Positions 1,522 to 33,399 of a stretch of 43,660 nucleotides of DNA are shown here, piece by piece; within the stretch, counting starts at the first letter, position 1; the number at the start of each line of letters is the position of its first letter. The notes below the pieces were generated by a model, which was not told where the DNA came from, did no database searches, and worked only from the letters and a program-made list of their open reading frames with translations. A program made the position numbers and the translations under genes. The stretch is from Lentisphaeria bacterium (GTDB lineage Bacteria > Verrucomicrobiota > Lentisphaeria > Victivallales > Victivallaceae). Location of the stretch: contig JAFSTC010000088.1 of NCBI GenBank assembly GCA_017450705.1, positions 1 to 43,660 on the forward strand. The letters run 5' to 3'.

Positions 1522-4287
1522 TCAGGACTCCTGTTTTTTCTGGAGCATGATTCCGGCGCCGATGATGATGGGGATCATGAGCGCCAGGACGGCGACGGGC
1601 TGGACGAGGTCGGCGAAGTACAGCGCCTTGTTGAAGATGCCGCGGGAGATGAGGAGCATGTAGGTGGTGGGATAGATGGTCCCGATGGCGCGGGCGATGC
1701 CCTCCTGGGTCTCGACGGGGGTGGTCATGCCGCAGAGCTGGGCGGAGGGGAGAAGCGTGCCCAGCATGGTGAGGAAGATGACGGCGATCTGGCTCCGGGT
1801 GACGGAGGAGGCCAGAAGTCCCATGCCGGTGGCGATGATGGCGTACATGACGGTGGCCAGGAGGAGGACGGGGAAGCTGCCCTTGACGGGGACGTCGAAG
1901 ATCGTGACGGCCATGACGGTGAGGAGGAGACTGCTCAGCACGGCGAAGAGGAGATAGGGGCACTGCTTGCCGAGGAGGAACTCCGTCCGGGTGAGCGGGG
2001 TCACGTAGAGGTTGATGATGGAGCCCATTTCCTTCTCACGGACGACGGAGAGGGCGGCGAGGATGGCGGGGATCATCAGCGTCAGAAGCGGGATCACCGC
2101 CGGGACCATGGCGGGCAGGCTGAGCACGTCCGGGTTGTAGCGGTAGCGGGTCTGGATGGAGACGTCCTTGAGTTTCCGCTTGGAGGGGGTCTTCGAGCGG
2201 GAGTCCAGCCACTCGTTGTGGATGGCCCTGACGTAGCTGTCGATGGTTTCGGCGCGGCTGGGCATGGAGCCGTCGACCCAGAAGGAGACGTCGGGACTTC
2301 TTCCCCGGTCCACGTCGCGGCCGAAACGGGGAGGCAGTTCGAGGACGAGGCTCAGCTCGCCGCTCTTCATCCGGCGGTCGAGCTCCTCGTAGGTATGGAC
2401 GGGGGGGTGCTCGGTGAAGTAGCGGGAACCGGCGATGTTCAGCATGTAGTTCTGGCTGGTGCGGGTATGGTCGCGGTCGAGGACGGCGTAGGAGAGGTTG
2501 TCCACATCCATGTTGATGCCGTAGCCGATGACGAACATGAGGATAAGGGCGCCGAAGAGGGCCAGCGTGGCGCGGATGGGGTCGCGCATGAGCTCCAGGG
2601 TCTCGCGCCAGAAGCAGCTGTACCAGCGCTGGAAGCTGAAAAACCGGCAGCAGCGGGGAGCCGAAGCGGGCGCGGCGGCGGCCGGGGTCTCCTCGGCGGT
2701 CTGGATGGCCTCTCCGGAGCGCTGGTTGGCCACGGGGTCGGCCTCTTCGAGAACGTTGATGAAGGCCTCCTCGAGGGTGGAGGTCCCCCGGGCGGAGATG
2801 ATGTTCTCGGGGGAGTCGCAGACGTAGGACTTGCCCGCGTGCATGAGGGAGATGCGGTCGCAGCGCCCGGCCTCGTTCATGAAGTGGGTGGTGATGAAGA
2901 TGGTCACCTTGTCCTTGCGCGAAAGTTCGATGATGAGCTCCCAGAAGAGGTCGCGGGCCACGGGATCGACGCCGGAGGTGGGCTCGTCGAGAATCAGGAT
3001 GTCCGGGTCGTGGATGACCGCGGCGGCCAGGGAGAGGCGCTGCTTGAGCCCCAGGGGCAGATCCTTGGGCAGGGCGTGCTCGATGTCGACGAGCTGGAAG
3101 CGGTCGATCATGCGTTTCACGCGGCCGGGGACCTCCGCTTCGGGGAGACCGTAAAGCCGGGCGTAGAGCATGAGGTTCTGCCTCACGGAGAGGTCGCCGT
3201 AGAGAGAAAAGAGCTGAGTCATATAGCCCAGATGTTTGCGGATCTCCATGGAGCCGCCGTCCACGGGCTTGCCGAAAAGTTCGGCGTGCCCCTCGGTGGC
3301 GGGCAGGAGTCCGGTGAGCATGCGCATGGTGGTGGTCTTGCCGCATCCGTTGGAGCCGAGGAAGCCGAAGATCTCGCCCCGGCGTATCTTGAAACTCACA
3401 TGATCGACGGCGGTGAAGGAACCGAATTTTTTGGTCAGTCCCTCGGCGACGATGGCGTAACCGTCTTCCTTGTCGCAGACGAGAGGCGGCACGGTCAGCT
3501 CCTTGTGGCCGGAGCGGCGGGACTCGGGCAGAAGCTGGATGAAGGCCGCATCGAGGTCGGCCTTTCCGGTCCGGGCCAGGATCTCCTCCGGCGTGCCGGT
3601 GGCGAGGATCTTCCCCTCGTCCATGGCGATCAAATCGTCGAAGCGCTGGGCTTCGTCCATGTACGCAGTGGCCACGATGACGCTCATCTGGGGCTGTTCC
3701 GCCTTGATGGAATCCACCAGATCCCAGAACTGCCGCCGGGCCAGGGGATCGACGCCGGTGGTGGGCTCATCGAGGACCAGCAGATCGGGGTCGTGGATGA
3801 GAGAGCAGCAGAGCCCCAGTTTCTGCTTCATGCCGCCGGAGAGCTTCCCTGCGGGACGGTCGAGAAAGGGGAAAAGTCCGGTGCTCTTGGTCAGACGGTC
3901 GATGCGCTTGCGGCGTTCCGCGGCGTCGTGGCCGAAAAGACGGCCGAAAAACTGCAGATTCTCCTCGACGGTCAGCGTGAAGTAAAGATTTTTGCCAAGT
4001 CCCTGGGGCATGTAGGCGATCCTGGGGCAGATGCGGTCGCGGTGCCCGGCGTCGCGCATGTCGCCGCCGAGAACGGTCAGCTCTCCCTGCTGGAGGGCAT
4101 GGGCCCCGGTGACAAGAGACAGGAGCGTGGACTTGCCCACGCCGTCGGGACCGATCAGCCCCACCAGACGCCGGGCGGGGATGTCGAGGGAGACGCCGTC
4201 CAAAGCCCGGACCTTGCCGTAGCAGAGGGTCAGATCCCTGAAGCTGACGACGGCGTCTTTGTTTTCCGCCGGGGAAGGCACGCTCAT
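1522..4287 (-). CDS. RbbA/YhiH-type fused double-ATPase ABC transporter and permease
   Basis: This 921-residue protein is close in length and layout to E. coli RbbA (YhiH): two ABC ATPase domains followed by an ABC-2 permease. The first Walker A is GPDGVGKS (46-53), followed by the signature LSGGMKQ and the Walker B region [13 protein letters not shown]. The second domain has GSNGCGKT near residue 310 and a degenerate signature, [10 protein letters not shown], which I recall as usual for the second domain of this family. The C-terminal third has an N-proximal membrane helix, an extracytoplasmic domain and several C-terminal helices. It overlaps the adaptor gene by four bases (ATGA). E. coli RbbA was named for ribosome binding, but the neighbours here support an export pump. 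The substrate is unknown. Confidence 0.9.
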
Positions 4288-5399
4288 TTTGCGCCGGCTC
4301 CGGGAGCCTTGGCAGCGGAGGCGGCCGGAGCGGCCGGGGCCTTGGCGGCCGGAGCAGCCGGGGCCTTGGCTGCAGGAGCGGCGGCTTTTGCGGCTTTTGC
4401 GGCCTTGTCGGCGGTGGCGGCGAGGGCTTTCCGGAGACGGAGAAATTCAGGCCACTCCACCTTGGGGTCGATCTTCACCCACGCCACGCCGGGCAGACCG
4501 GTCTTGACGATGTCGATGTACTTTCTGAGAAGCTCCGGCGGGATCGAAGCCTTGACGCGGAACATGAGCTTCTGCCGCTCGATCCGGGTCTCCACGGTCT
4601 TGGGGGTGAACTGGGCCTCGTTGGCGACGAAGGTGATCTTCGCGGGGATGGGGATCCCCGGCAGGGCGTCCAGCAGGATCCGGGCGTCGGCGCCGATGCG
4701 CACCTTGCCCGCGACCTCCTCCGGCAGGAAGAAGGTCATGTAGACGTCGGTCAGATCCAGCAGATTGACCACGCACCCGCCGGCGTCGAGAACTTCTCCG
4801 GGCTCGGAGACCTTGTACTGGATGCGGCCGTCGATGGGAGAGGTGAGGTTGCTGTCCTTGATGTCTTCCTCCCGGCGCCTCACGTCGGCCTCGGCGGCCT
4901 TGATGGCGGCTTCGGCCTGAACGACGGCGGCCTTGGCGGCGGCGAGCTCGGCGTCGGCCGCTTCGAACAGGGCCTTGTCATTGTCGAAATTCTGCTGGGA
5001 GGTGGCATTTTTCGAGACGAGGTACTCGGCCCTCTTGTAGCGGCGGTAGGCGTTGTCGCGGCTGCTGGTTTTCTGGAGGACGACGGCCTTGGCGGAGGCC
5101 AGTTCGGCCTTCTTCACCGCGACCATGGACTTGGCCTGGGCCAGCTGGGCTTCGAGGACGTTGGTCTGCATCTTGGCGATCAGCTGTCCCTTCTTCACGT
5201 AATCGCCGTCCTTGACGAGAACGCTTTCGATCTTTTCCGCCAGTTTGGTCGCAACATTCACCTCGGTCGCCTCCAGCCGCCCGTTGCCGGAGGCGAAAGC
5301 CGGATCGCGGTAGATGGCGTTGTCCACATAGGATTTGATGCTGTACAACGCCAGTCCGACGACGGCGACGACGATGAGGGCGATGACGATCTTCTTCAC
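4284..5399 (-). CDS. HlyD-family periplasmic adaptor, YhiI-like
   Basis: This 371-residue membrane-fusion protein should link the inner-membrane ABC pump to an outer-membrane channel. It starts with GTG, well placed after AGGAGG. Residues 1-22 form a single membrane anchor ([18 protein letters not shown]). A biotinyl/lipoyl-like half-motif ([20 protein letters not shown]) is followed by a long Ala-, Glu- and Lys-rich helical hairpin (about residues 85-180) and a second lipoyl-like half near [18 protein letters not shown]. The last 50 or so residues are low-complexity Ala-Pro-Lys repeats ([15 protein letters not shown]), an unusual tail for this family. It begins 36 bases after the fabZ-like gene in the same direction, so it is probably co-transcribed with the lipid A genes. 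Confidence 0.88.
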
Positions 5400-29255: not shown

Positions 29256-30533
29256 TCACGCCTTTTTCTTCCGCGGATCGTCGAGGCGGAGGATCGGGAC
29301 GCTCAGGACCGCGAGGAGAAGCAGGACCAGAAGAAAGTAGATCCTGTAGGTCGCAAGAGGCCGGGCGGAACCGTTCAGGGCCGAGGCGATCCTGAGCAGA
29401 AGACCGCCGGAAGCCAGTCCCAGCAGTCCGGCCAGGGCGCCGGAGGCGATGGAGATGAAGATGCTGGCGGAGACCTGCGCCTCCTTGGGAACGGTCTCGA
29501 GAAAATACTGCGCCAGCGCATTGGTGATGCAGACGTTCCCGCAGGCGGCGACGAAAAACGGCACCAGCAGGAAACCCCACGAAAAACCGGCCGGAACGAC
29601 GATCCAGTACAGCGCGAGAAGGCAAATCAGCAGATATCCGCCGGCGATCATGACCTTGCCGCCGAACCGGTCGGAAACGCGGCTCAGAAGATAGTTTGCG
29701 GGGACGGAGGCAAACAGCTGCACCATGGAAAAAACCAGCGCCTGGGTGTCCGCGGCGAGAAACCCCTTTTTCACCGTGAGCAGAGAGATGGGAACGGTCA
29801 GGATCACGCCCACATAGCAGACGATCCCGGCGTAGATCTGCCGGCGCACCGCGGGGAGCCCCAGCACCCGACGGTACTCCCGGAAGACCGGCCGCCGGGC
29901 GGCGTCGCGGATCTCGCCCGTCTCGCACATGGCCCGCATGAAAAAGGAACTTGCGATGCCCAGAAACGCCCCCGTGATGATGATCCCGCAGATGGTGTTC
30001 GCCCCGGGGTGATGCCTGAGCAGAACCGTTATGACGAGCAGCGCCAGGAATCCCGCGGCGTAGAAAAACATCCACGACCGGGCAATGACGCGCCCCCGGG
30101 TCCCCGGGGGACACACTTCGCCGATCAGCGGCTGCGACATCACGATGCCGGCGGCCCGGCATCCGTAGAACACCAGGGAACCCGCGACCAGCAGAAAGAC
30201 CGCGGGACCGCGCCAGCCGCAGGCGGCGAGGGGCGCGGCCGCGGCGATGAAGAGGGAGGCGATGTTCCTCAGGACCCAGAAATCGGCCTGACTGCGGACG
30301 GCGCCCGTGCGGGCGGTCATCCATTTGCCCAGCGGCAGGAACAGGAACCCCACGTAGACCATGGCGCCGAGGGCGGAGATGACGGCGTCATGACACTTGA
30401 GCCGCAGGGCGAAAAGGATCAGGATCGTGTCCCCGAGGCACATGTAGCTCATGCCGTTCACGGCGCTGTACAGGTTGTAGAAGCGCTGGGACGTCCTCAT
30501 CTCCTCGGGCGTCAGCGGGCGGTTGAGGATCAT
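29256..30533 (-). CDS. Major facilitator superfamily transporter
   Basis: This 425-residue integral membrane protein has about 12 hydrophobic helices in two sets of six and a basic cytoplasmic loop motif after helix 2 (GKWMTARTGAVR), as in MFS carriers. A degenerate GDRFGG-like loop (SRVSDRFGGKVM) occurs in the second half. The substrate is unknown. A GAGAGGAG sequence lies 14 bases upstream of the ATG, further than ideal, so the start is moderately sure. It converges with the GtrA gene 22 bases away. Its only upstream neighbour is the esterase, separated by a strong terminator. Confidence 0.82.
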   Translation of the reverse strand: MILNRPLTPEEMRTSQRFYNLYSAVNGMSYMCLGDTILILFALRLKCHDAVISALGAMVYVGFLFLPLGKWMTARTGAVRSQADFWVLRNIASLFIAAAAPLAACGWRGPAVFLLVAGSLVFYGCRAAGIVMSQPLIGEVCPPGTRGRVIARSWMFFYAAGFLALLVITVLLRHHPGANTICGIIITGAFLGIASSFFMRAMCETGEIRDAARRPVFREYRRVLGLPAVRRQIYAGIVCYVGVILTVPISLLTVKKGFLAADTQALVFSMVQLFASVPANYLLSRVSDRFGGKVMIAGGYLLICLLALYWIVVPAGFSWGFLLVPFFVAACGNVCITNALAQYFLETVPKEAQVSASIFISIASGALAGLLGLASGGLLLRIASALNGSARPLATYRIYFLLVLLLLAVLSVPILRLDDPRKKKA

Positions 30534-30561
30534 GGTCGGAAATCGGACTCCTCTCGAATGG

Positions 30562-30600
30562 AAAAACCGGGATGCCGGAAGCCTCGGCTCCGGCACCCCG
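30562..30600 (-). terminator. Rho-independent terminator of the esterase gene
   Basis: On the minus strand a long, slightly imperfect stem (CGGGGTGCCGG with CCGGCATCCCG, plus AGCC/GGCT) is followed by GTTTTT. It begins 25 bases past the esterase stop and lies before the MFS gene. Confidence 0.82.
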
Positions 30601-30624: not shown

Positions 30625-32250
30625 CTACTTTTTGTTTTTGAAAGTGCTCCAGACGATGACCTCGGACTTCTGAGGAACGAAGCCGTGGTTGCTGCCCTGG
30701 ACCCAGCGGATGCTCTTTCTGGGCGTCGCCAGATTGTTGTAGCTGACAGCCAGACCCGAGGGCGGGCAGGTGTAGTCGCCGAGGCCCGCACGGGTGATCT
30801 CGACGGTGGCCTTTTTGATGCGCTTGGCCATGAAGACGGGGTCGTAGTAATCCAGGCCGGGGACGTACTTGATGCGCCACGGACCGTGGATGCGTTTGGC
30901 TTTCTCGGTCCCGGCCATGTCGCAGCACCAGGTGATGGAGGGCTGGGCGACGGTGACGTCCTGATCGAGGGCCGCGGCCCACATGGTCTGGAGTCCGCCC
31001 TGGCTGCCGCCCGCGGCGGTCAGGTCCTTGCCGTTCCACTCGGGAAGGGTCTTGAGGTATTCGAGGGTCCGCAGGATGCGCATGACCATGCCGTTGAAGA
31101 AGCAGTTTTCGGGATCCTTGTTCTGCTCGGGATCGAAGGCGTAAGTGTATTTCTCGGTGCGGATGGATTTGAAGAACTCCCTGTAATACGCGCTCTTCTG
31201 ACCCAGCTTCTGCCCGTGGGCGTTCAGCGAGAAGAAAATTTTGTTCTGCGGGACGGCGGTGAGGGGCTGCTGGATGTGGGTGCCGTAGCCGAAGAAGCTG
31301 ATGAGGATGGGCAGCGATTTGGCCTTGGCGTTTTTGGGAACGGTCATGTAGCCGGTGGCCGGACGGGGTCCGGGTGCGGGGATCGAAACGGCGTAGACGT
31401 AACCGTTGGGATACTCTTTGACGAGAGTCTTCTCCACCTTTCCGGCAAAGGGCACTTCGGCCAGGCGTTTTTTCTGGCGGGCCCAGAAGGCGTCGAAATC
31501 CGCGGGCTCGCCGCAGTCCTTGAGGGTCTCGGCCTGCACGCCGGCGCCGGCGTAGAAGGCGACGGCCTGACGGGCTTTGCGCTTGTTCCAGCGGATGTAC
31601 TCGTAGGAGAGGCGCTTGCCCTTTTCATCTGTGAGGAAGACGTCGACGCTGACGAATCCGGGCTTGTCGAGGGAGGTCTTCACCACAAGCGGCTGATCGG
31701 CGGGACCGTGTCCCGAAACGGTTTTGTTGTCGTCGCCGCGGCGGGTGTAGCGCAGGAAGAGTTTCTCCGGCGCGACGGTCCCGAGATCGGCCTTGAAAGT
31801 GAAGATCATCTCTTCGCCGGGGGCGTAGGAGAGGGCCGATTTGTTGGTCTCGCAGAGGATCCGGACTCCGGCGTACTTCGTATCGAGGGCCTTGGGGGCG
31901 GCCTTCTCCTTTTTCGCCGGGGCGGCTTTTTTCGCCGGGGCAGCCTTCACCGCGGGCGCGGCTTTCTTGTCGCAGCCCGCCTTGCAGCAGGCCTTCTCGC
32001 CGCAAGTCTTTTTGTCGCAATCCTTCCCGCAGCAGGCCTTTTTGTCGCAGCCCGCCTTGCAGCAGGCTTTTTTGTCGCAAGTCTTTTTGTCACAGCCCGC
32101 CTTGCAGCAGGCTTTCTTGTCGGCGGCGGCTTTCTTGTCGCAGGACTTGACTTCGGCGGCGGAGGGCTGCTCTTTTTTGCACCCCTGGTCCGGGCACGTA
32201 CAGCCGGCCGCCGCGAGGGCCGCCAGTGCGGCGATCAGAAATCTTTTCAT
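30625..32250 (-). CDS. Lipoprotein carbohydrate esterase, CE7-like, with Cys-Lys repeats
   Basis: The 541-residue protein begins with a lipoprotein signal (MKRFLIAALAALAAAGC, lipid Cys17). Residues 37-96 hold 15 cysteines in repeats CCKAGCDKK (48-56, 63-71, 88-96) with variants, followed by an Ala-Lys-Pro linker to about 125. A beta-rich domain (about 125-225) precedes an alpha/beta-hydrolase resembling acetyl-xylan/cephalosporin esterases (CE7): GGSQGG with Ser416, Asp492 in LGDYTCPP and His522 in SNHGF form a likely triad. CE7 enzymes remove acetyl groups from oligosaccharides. The metallothionein-like region is not part of that family as I know it. AAGGAG precedes the ATG. It has its own promoter and terminator. 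Confidence 0.84.
   Translation of the reverse strand: MKRFLIAALAALAAAGCTCPDQGCKKEQPSAAEVKSCDKKAAADKKACCKAGCDKKTCDKKACCKAGCDKKACCGKDCDKKTCGEKACCKAGCDKKAAPAVKAAPAKKAAPAKKEKAAPKALDTKYAGVRILCETNKSALSYAPGEEMIFTFKADLGTVAPEKLFLRYTRRGDDNKTVSGHGPADQPLVVKTSLDKPGFVSVDVFLTDEKGKRLSYEYIRWNKRKARQAVAFYAGAGVQAETLKDCGEPADFDAFWARQKKRLAEVPFAGKVEKTLVKEYPNGYVYAVSIPAPGPRPATGYMTVPKNAKAKSLPILISFFGYGTHIQQPLTAVPQNKIFFSLNAHGQKLGQKSAYYREFFKSIRTEKYTYAFDPEQNKDPENCFFNGMVMRILRTLEYLKTLPEWNGKDLTAAGGSQGGLQTMWAAALDQDVTVAQPSITWCCDMAGTEKAKRIHGPWRIKYVPGLDYYDPVFMAKRIKKATVEITRAGLGDYTCPPSGLAVSYNNLATPRKSIRWVQGSNHGFVPQKSEVIVWSTFKNKK
31963..32142 (-). repeat. DNA repeats encoding the CCKAGCDKK region
   Basis: Repeats of 45 and 30 bases encode CCKAGCDKKTCDKKA-type units four times in the esterase N-terminus. 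The copies are near-identical in DNA, which points to recent expansion and likely length variation between strains. Confidence 0.75.
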
Positions 32251-32352: not shown

Positions 32353-33399
32353 TCAGCGGCCGAGGATGGAAGCGATGACGGCGTCGGTCATTTCGGTCGT
32401 CGTTCCCCGTCCGCCGATGTCGGGCGTTGTGGCGGCGCCAGCCTTGAGGACGGCGCACAGGGAATCCATGAGCAGATCGGCGGCGGGCTTTTCGCCCAGC
32501 TGTTCGAGCATGAGGGCGATGGCCCAGAAGGTCCCGGCCGGATCGGCGATCCCCTTGCCGGCGATGTCGGGCGCGGAACCGTGGATGGGCTCGAACATGC
32601 CGGGATAGATCCCCTCGGGATTGATGTTGCCCGAGGGCGAAATGCCGATGCTGCCCAGCATGGCGGAGCCGAGATCGGTGAGGATGTCGCCGAAGAGATT
32701 GCTGGCGACCACCATCTGCAGGCGGTCGGGATGCATGATGAAGAATCCGGCCAGCGCGTCGATGTGCATCTGCCGGGACTCCATGCCGGGGTAATCCACC
32801 CGGACTTCATTGAAGATCTTGTCCCAGAAGACCATGGAGTGATTGAGGGCGTTGGACTTCGTCGCGCTGAGGACCCGGGTCATGCCGCGGGCTTTGGCGT
32901 ACTCGAAGGCGTAGCGGATGATGCGCTCGGTCCCCTTGCGGGTGAAGACGGCCTCCTGCACGGCGCCGTTGTCGTCGGAGCGGCCGCGGCCGCAGTATTC
33001 GCCCTCGGAGTTCTCCCGGACGACCACGAAATCGATGTCGTCGTTTTTGAGCGGCGAGACCAGGCCGGGCAGGAGTTTGATGGGCCGCAGATTGACGTAC
33101 TGGTCGAACCCGGTCCGGATGGGGAGCAGGAGCTCCCGCAGGGAAACGTGGTCGGGCACGCCGGGGAACCCCACCGCCCCCAGCAGGATCGCGTCGCAGT
33201 CCCGCAGAACGGTCATGCCGTCCGGCGGCATCATGCGGCCGTGCTCGAGATAGTAGGCACAGCTCCAGGGGAGTTTGTTGTAAGTGAATTTGAGTCCGCC
33301 GTGCCTGACGGCGACCGCGTCCAGGACCCGGACGCCCTCGGCGATCACGTCGACGCCGATGCCGTCCCCGGGAATGAGGTTTATCCTGAAGTTTTTCAC
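32353..33399 (-). CDS. Tartrate/D-malate dehydrogenase-like beta-decarboxylating dehydrogenase
   Basis: This 348-residue protein belongs to the isocitrate/isopropylmalate dehydrogenase family: IPGDGIG (9-15), VNLRPIKLLPG, the VVVRENSEGEYCG motif and the metal-binding SNLFGDILTDLGSAM. The RENSEGEY motif and absence of the LeuB loop (ELTGGIYFG) place it with tartrate/D-malate dehydrogenases rather than LeuB. It would oxidise and decarboxylate a 2-hydroxy acid with NAD and a divalent metal. No leucine genes are nearby. The start is GTG after AAGGA. It is probably transcribed alone from 33445-33473. Confidence 0.85.
   Translation of the reverse strand: MKNFRINLIPGDGIGVDVIAEGVRVLDAVAVRHGGLKFTYNKLPWSCAYYLEHGRMMPPDGMTVLRDCDAILLGAVGFPGVPDHVSLRELLLPIRTGFDQYVNLRPIKLLPGLVSPLKNDDIDFVVVRENSEGEYCGRGRSDDNGAVQEAVFTRKGTERIIRYAFEYAKARGMTRVLSATKSNALNHSMVFWDKIFNEVRVDYPGMESRQMHIDALAGFFIMHPDRLQMVVASNLFGDILTDLGSAMLGSIGISPSGNINPEGIYPGMFEPIHGSAPDIAGKGIADPAGTFWAIALMLEQLGEKPAADLLMDSLCAVLKAGAATTPDIGGRGTTTEMTDAVIASILGR

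Follow-up and report, generated by a model that had tools for sequence, protein, structure and literature searches.

The esterase described here is encoded in a window of 43,660 nucleotides, the whole stretch of DNA that was analysed, from a gut-type Lentisphaeria bacterium, and its tether has been rebuilt recently in this one species. With a probability of roughly 55%, the protein is a lipid-anchored CE7/AXE1 esterase on a fast-evolving, disordered and cationic tether that gained its cysteines by tandem duplication and whose thiols are probably reduced. It offers a clean example of tandem duplication remodelling a tether in a single species against a fixed enzyme and gene order, and an esterase from another genus, L022, is a parallel case of such rebuilding. 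The features of the locus are as follows; L035 and L036 (and L006, a second sighting of L035) are related esterase loci.

29256..30596 (-), MFS transporter, downstream, a conserved neighbour (Pfam MFS_1; adjoins the esterase orthologue in L035 and L036)
30625..32250 (-), gene of the putatively lipid-anchored CE7/AXE1-type esterase, 541 aa (open frame; Pfam AXE1; 84-member alignment)
30634..31506 (-), alpha/beta-hydrolase CE7-like catalytic domain with Ser416/Asp492/His522 (Pfam, PDB matches, alignment, AlphaFold2, Foldseek)
31534..31869 (-), beta-rich N-terminal domain, residues 128-239 (AlphaFold2 strands 130-238, pLDDT about 90 or more)
31882..31959 (-), Ala/Pro/Lys linker with AAPAKK repeats, the part resembling the tethers of relatives (tether comparisons)
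31960..32109 (-), two 25-aa (75-nt) superunits, residues 48-72 and 73-97 (83% DNA identity)
31960..32142 (-), cysteine-lysine repeat, residues 37-97, with ten regular pentads in 48-97 (sequence, shuffles, Tandem Repeats Finder)
32200..32250 (-), putative signal peptide and lipobox, MKRFLIAALAALAAAG followed by C17 (lipobox pattern; same start in L035/L006)
32353..33399 (-), isocitrate/isopropylmalate dehydrogenase-family gene, upstream, a conserved neighbour (Pfam Iso_dh; same order in L035 and L036)

The esterase ATG is preceded by the ribosome-binding-like sequence AAGGAG. Cys17, the putative lipidated residue, matches the lipobox pattern, and the lipid anchor that the original prediction placed there is likely, with the Pfam LPAM_1 profile reaching a score below its cut-off (E 0.12). 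The closest relative, L035, is a goat-rumen Lentisphaeria MAG and begins KRFLIAALAA..GCSCPDGEC, where GCSCPDGEC corresponds to GCTCPDQGC in the esterase studied. From these N-terminal features the protein appears to be exported and lipid-anchored. Two further cysteines, Cys19 and Cys24, also sit ahead of the repeat. A second cysteine two residues past the lipobox cysteine (CxCP, also CTCC) is seen in residues 17-24 of the esterase and in L035, L036, L095 and L106.

The enzyme itself is most likely a carbohydrate (sugar-polymer) esterase of the CE7/AXE1 type, as judged from family matches and the predicted fold. Pfam AXE1 (PF05448) matches it with E 2e-21 (76.5 bits versus a cut-off of 21), and the solved structures closest to it in sequence belong to CE7 acetyl xylan esterases and cephalosporin C deacetylases, with matches starting near residue 248, behind the beta-rich domain. 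The AlphaFold2 model, computed from a 62-sequence alignment, exceeds a pLDDT of 90 over most of the enzyme and is at about 90 or more almost throughout it, and CE7-type enzymes occupy all of ranks 1-48 in a Foldseek search of the PDB (top match E 4e-19). The predicted Ser416-Asp492-His522 triad is correct and essentially invariant among 84 homologues (Ser416 84/84, Asp492 84/84, His522 83/84), in GxSQG, D-CPPS and H contexts. The catalytic fold is common to this protein and to CE7/AXE1 enzymes such as TM0077, the B. subtilis cephalosporin C deacetylase and the Paenibacillus enzyme 6agq, as are the GGSQGG nucleophile, the Asp before CPPS and the His near the C-terminus. The signature motifs of CE7 are RGQ and HE. 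Because these are replaced by HGQ and HG in comparison with 6agq, the esterase is called CE7-like, a divergent branch rather than a strict CE7 member; H345-G346 is invariant in 84/84 homologues. The CE7-like esterase of the original prediction is borne out. The extra beta-rich front domain and the probably lipid-anchored tether also set it apart from CE7/AXE1 enzymes, and a literature search for CE7 enzymes with cysteine-rich regions found nothing. The catalytic domain is under purifying selection, with a dN of 0.078 and a dS of 0.51 relative to the nearest relative.

The density of cysteines originally predicted, 15 in 57 residues, is exact for residues 37-93; the coordinates then given, 31963-32142 (-), correspond to residues 37-96 of the 541-codon frame. 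The CCKAGCDKK-type repeat is borne out as well and is more regular than had been described. Residues 48-97 form ten successive Cys-first pentads (Cys48, 53, 58, 63, 68, 73, 78, 83, 88 and 93) of the types CCKAG, CDKKA and CDKKT, and a second cysteine in four of the ten (CCKAG, CCGKD) gives 14 cysteines in 50 residues. The cysteine content of nearby genes is 1.7%; at a rate of 2%, the binomial probability of at least 15 cysteines in 57 residues is about 3e-13, and the cysteine phase of the ten pentads was reproduced in 0 of 200,000 shuffles of the repeat region. Tandem Repeats Finder detects 15-nt (12.4 copies), 30-nt and 75-nt (2.1 copies, score 222) arrays, all with periods divisible by three, and the reading frame stays open from end to end. 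The DNA repeats had been called near-identical, which applies to single 15-nt units more than to whole superunits, where 13 of 75 bases differ (83% identity). Nine codons differ between the superunits, four synonymously and five non-synonymously, and none of the changes replaces a cysteine; since five non-synonymous changes would all spare cysteine by chance with a probability of about 16% (hand estimate), this pattern is uninformative on selection. The tether carries a net charge of +16. Residues 1-107 have a pLDDT below 50 and no confident structure in the AlphaFold2 model, which is weak evidence for disorder because the repeat has no orthologues and its alignment is shallow.

The tethers of related esterases are of other kinds. 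The enzyme of L035 is 87% identical, and its tether, KAPKKADAAQAPKKTDAVKAPKKKAPAKK, is a Cys-free Lys/Ala/Pro segment. Those of L036, L052 and L037 differ again (41-80 aa, with cysteines confined to the lipobox region), and most of the 84 homologues have a plain signal peptide or another N-terminal module. Judging from these differing tethers and varied N-termini, the tether is the fast-changing part of the esterase, and its sequence appears weakly constrained across the family. The cysteine repeat would most simply have arisen after the split from L035. The recent expansion proposed at the outset is borne out. The absence of the repeats from the closest relatives had also been named as the sequence half of what would speak against the original prediction.

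Searches for the repeat elsewhere returned little. The word CCKAGCDKK occurs in this genome only among 198 of the class, CDKKACC in no other of the 78 family genomes, and the class searched with the esterase tether and with the L022 tether yielded weak low-complexity matches alone. Viral contigs and plasmids gave no match. Within its own genome, the CxKKxC pattern has 12 sites, four in the repeat and the others scattered singly, and a protein search with the tether returned weak hits of other kinds alone; these were pattern and profile searches, which a divergent Cys-rich lipoprotein could escape. A run of CKTAA pentads at L070:1565-1780 was rejected as an intergenic 15-bp tandem repeat that spells CKTAA in one frame, with no evident gene. 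A frameshift origin of the repeat from an Ala/Pro/Lys tether was likewise rejected as unnecessary, since the shared KKA/DKKA words remain in frame.

A second Cys/Lys tether, KKCQQKCDKKAKECPEKADKKCDKKAKECPKKADEK, is found in L022 (L098:3899-5410; genome G068, another genus of the family). Its tether letters, CQQKCDKKAKECPEKADKKCDKKAKECPKKADEK, carry their own 45-nt duplication. In a maximum-likelihood tree, L022 and the esterase studied represent two separate tether changes, because L083, the sister of L022 in the same genome, is without the tether. The two tethers have in common the esterase family, the likely lipid anchor, CDKK words and a recent duplication (of 45 nt in L022). They differ in that the L022 tether has an irregular spacing of 4, 7 or 8 residues and fewer repeat cysteines (five), and was gained independently. 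Two Cys/Lys gains among few Lys-rich lipoprotein tethers are suggestive of selection; they are too few to prove it, because cysteines can enter a Lys/Ala tether through a small number of changes. Cysteines kept in all ten pentads, together with the gain in L022, count against the favoured reading and could mean that the cysteines are under selection.

These observations are consistent with a simple scheme. Residues 18-125 would be disordered and strongly positive and would act as a tether keeping the enzyme off the membrane. Within it, a Cys-Asp-Lys-Lys pentad was probably multiplied recently, by 15-nt and 75-nt tandem duplication in this species, and these duplications would have produced 14 cysteines in ten regular pentads. 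In a probable anaerobe in which Dsb enzymes were not detected, the thiols would be mostly reduced, and might bind soft metal ions loosely or react with small thiols. The main job of the esterase would be independent of the repeat cysteines. Metal- or disulfide-induced folding of the tether may occur and is compatible with the low pLDDT of a shallowly aligned repeat. If the thiols are functional, exported cysteines would be put to a new use in an anaerobe in which no Dsb system was detected.

That the repeat is instead an extracytoplasmic metal-thiolate module like a metallothionein, with reduced cysteines binding Zn, Cu or Cd and the esterase carried along, is unlikely, and the sequence tests applied to this originally predicted likeness failed. 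The 14 cysteines in 50 residues, fixed in spacing and set among lysines, would suit such a module, as would the probably reducing extracytoplasmic conditions, with Dsb genes not found, and the fact that L022 acquired a different Cys/Lys tether independently. Against it, CxC, CxxC and His, the motifs usual in metallothioneins, each number 0 in residues 37-97; metallothionein family profiles and solved chains have no match to the tether; and the esterase lies between a dehydrogenase gene and an MFS transporter gene, with no metal gene, regulator or transporter alongside. The repeat is also confined to one species. High cysteine content is common to it and to the bacterial metallothioneins SmtA, PflQ2 MT and MymT; unlike them, it has a fixed five-residue spacing without CxC, CxxC or His and is fused to an exported enzyme outside any metal-regulated operon. 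Reduced thiols this dense can be expected to take up some soft metal, perhaps incidentally. It is quite unlikely that the Lys/Ala tethers of the family became, at least twice, a reduced extracytoplasmic Cys/Lys module that binds metal or sulfur species on a carbohydrate enzyme; if true, anaerobic gut bacteria would have in this twice-gained module a new thiol repeat that is not a metallothionein.

A disulfide cross-linked stalk, tying the lipoprotein to itself or to its neighbours as in the chlamydial Cys-rich envelope or keratin-associated proteins, is distinctly improbable. Keratin-associated high-sulfur proteins of eukaryotes have regular Cys pentads with CC pairs, and the repeat, with its own pentads and paired CC, resembles such Cys pentapeptide proteins in composition; it is bacterial and Lys-rich, with no evidence of homology to them. 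A literature search for Cys pentapeptides with keratin-associated proteins and disulfides found nothing, and one paper mentions a repeating pentapeptide only (PMC3107965). Chlamydiae, which are also PVC bacteria, use the Cys-rich outer-membrane proteins OmcA, a small lipoprotein, and OmcB (PMC2811131). These are Cys-rich envelope proteins of the same group, but the tether has no match in Pfam, including any OmcA/OmcB-like homology, and is a low-complexity pentad repeat. The likeness to a cross-linked stalk, part of the original prediction, is weakened because DsbA, DsbB, VKOR and Thioredoxin_4 (PF01323, PF02600, PF07884, PF13462) have no match in this 97.4%-complete genome, each search having given matches in control genomes. 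Of the 78 family genomes, 77 lack DsbA-type oxidases, so that a dedicated system for oxidising exported thiols is probably absent, although oxidases of an unknown kind may act on them; the same absence suggests that Lentisphaeria of this family export proteins without dedicated disulfide formation. The relatives come from rumen and colon and are therefore probably anaerobes, and no other such repeat was detected in this genome.

It is highly improbable that only the lysines matter, with the cysteines as passengers on a polycationic tether that anchors the protein to acidic envelope or plant polysaccharide: among the family's six short lipoprotein tethers, five are 24-32% lysine whatever their cysteine number, but that of L037 is only 13% lysine. 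The idea that the repeat owes its copy number or its sequence in part to draft-assembly error deserves hardly any credence, for although short tandem repeats are often mis-assembled and the repeat is known from a single assembly of this species, a draft in 117 contigs, 13 of 75 bases differ between superunits, the units are multiples of three, the frame stays open into a conserved enzyme, and a collapse would reduce repeats rather than create them.

The order dehydrogenase, esterase, MFS transporter is the same in L035 as here, and in L036 a tandem pair of esterases lies between the dehydrogenase and the MFS gene. Across the family, the esterase domain is joined to many N-terminal modules (L095, L102, L106, L104, L108 and others), sometimes in tandem copies. 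Another esterase paralogue in this genome is seemingly split over two contig ends (L081, G000:C57:2538-3338, and L082, G000:C95:10010-10633), and a long upstream module precedes its front half in a fused open frame of 1092 aa. Elsewhere in the window, at 4284-5399 (-), a protein that by eye is a HlyD-like membrane-fusion protein has an Ala/Lys/Pro repeat tail, a low-complexity segment of the same kind as the Cys-free esterase tethers.
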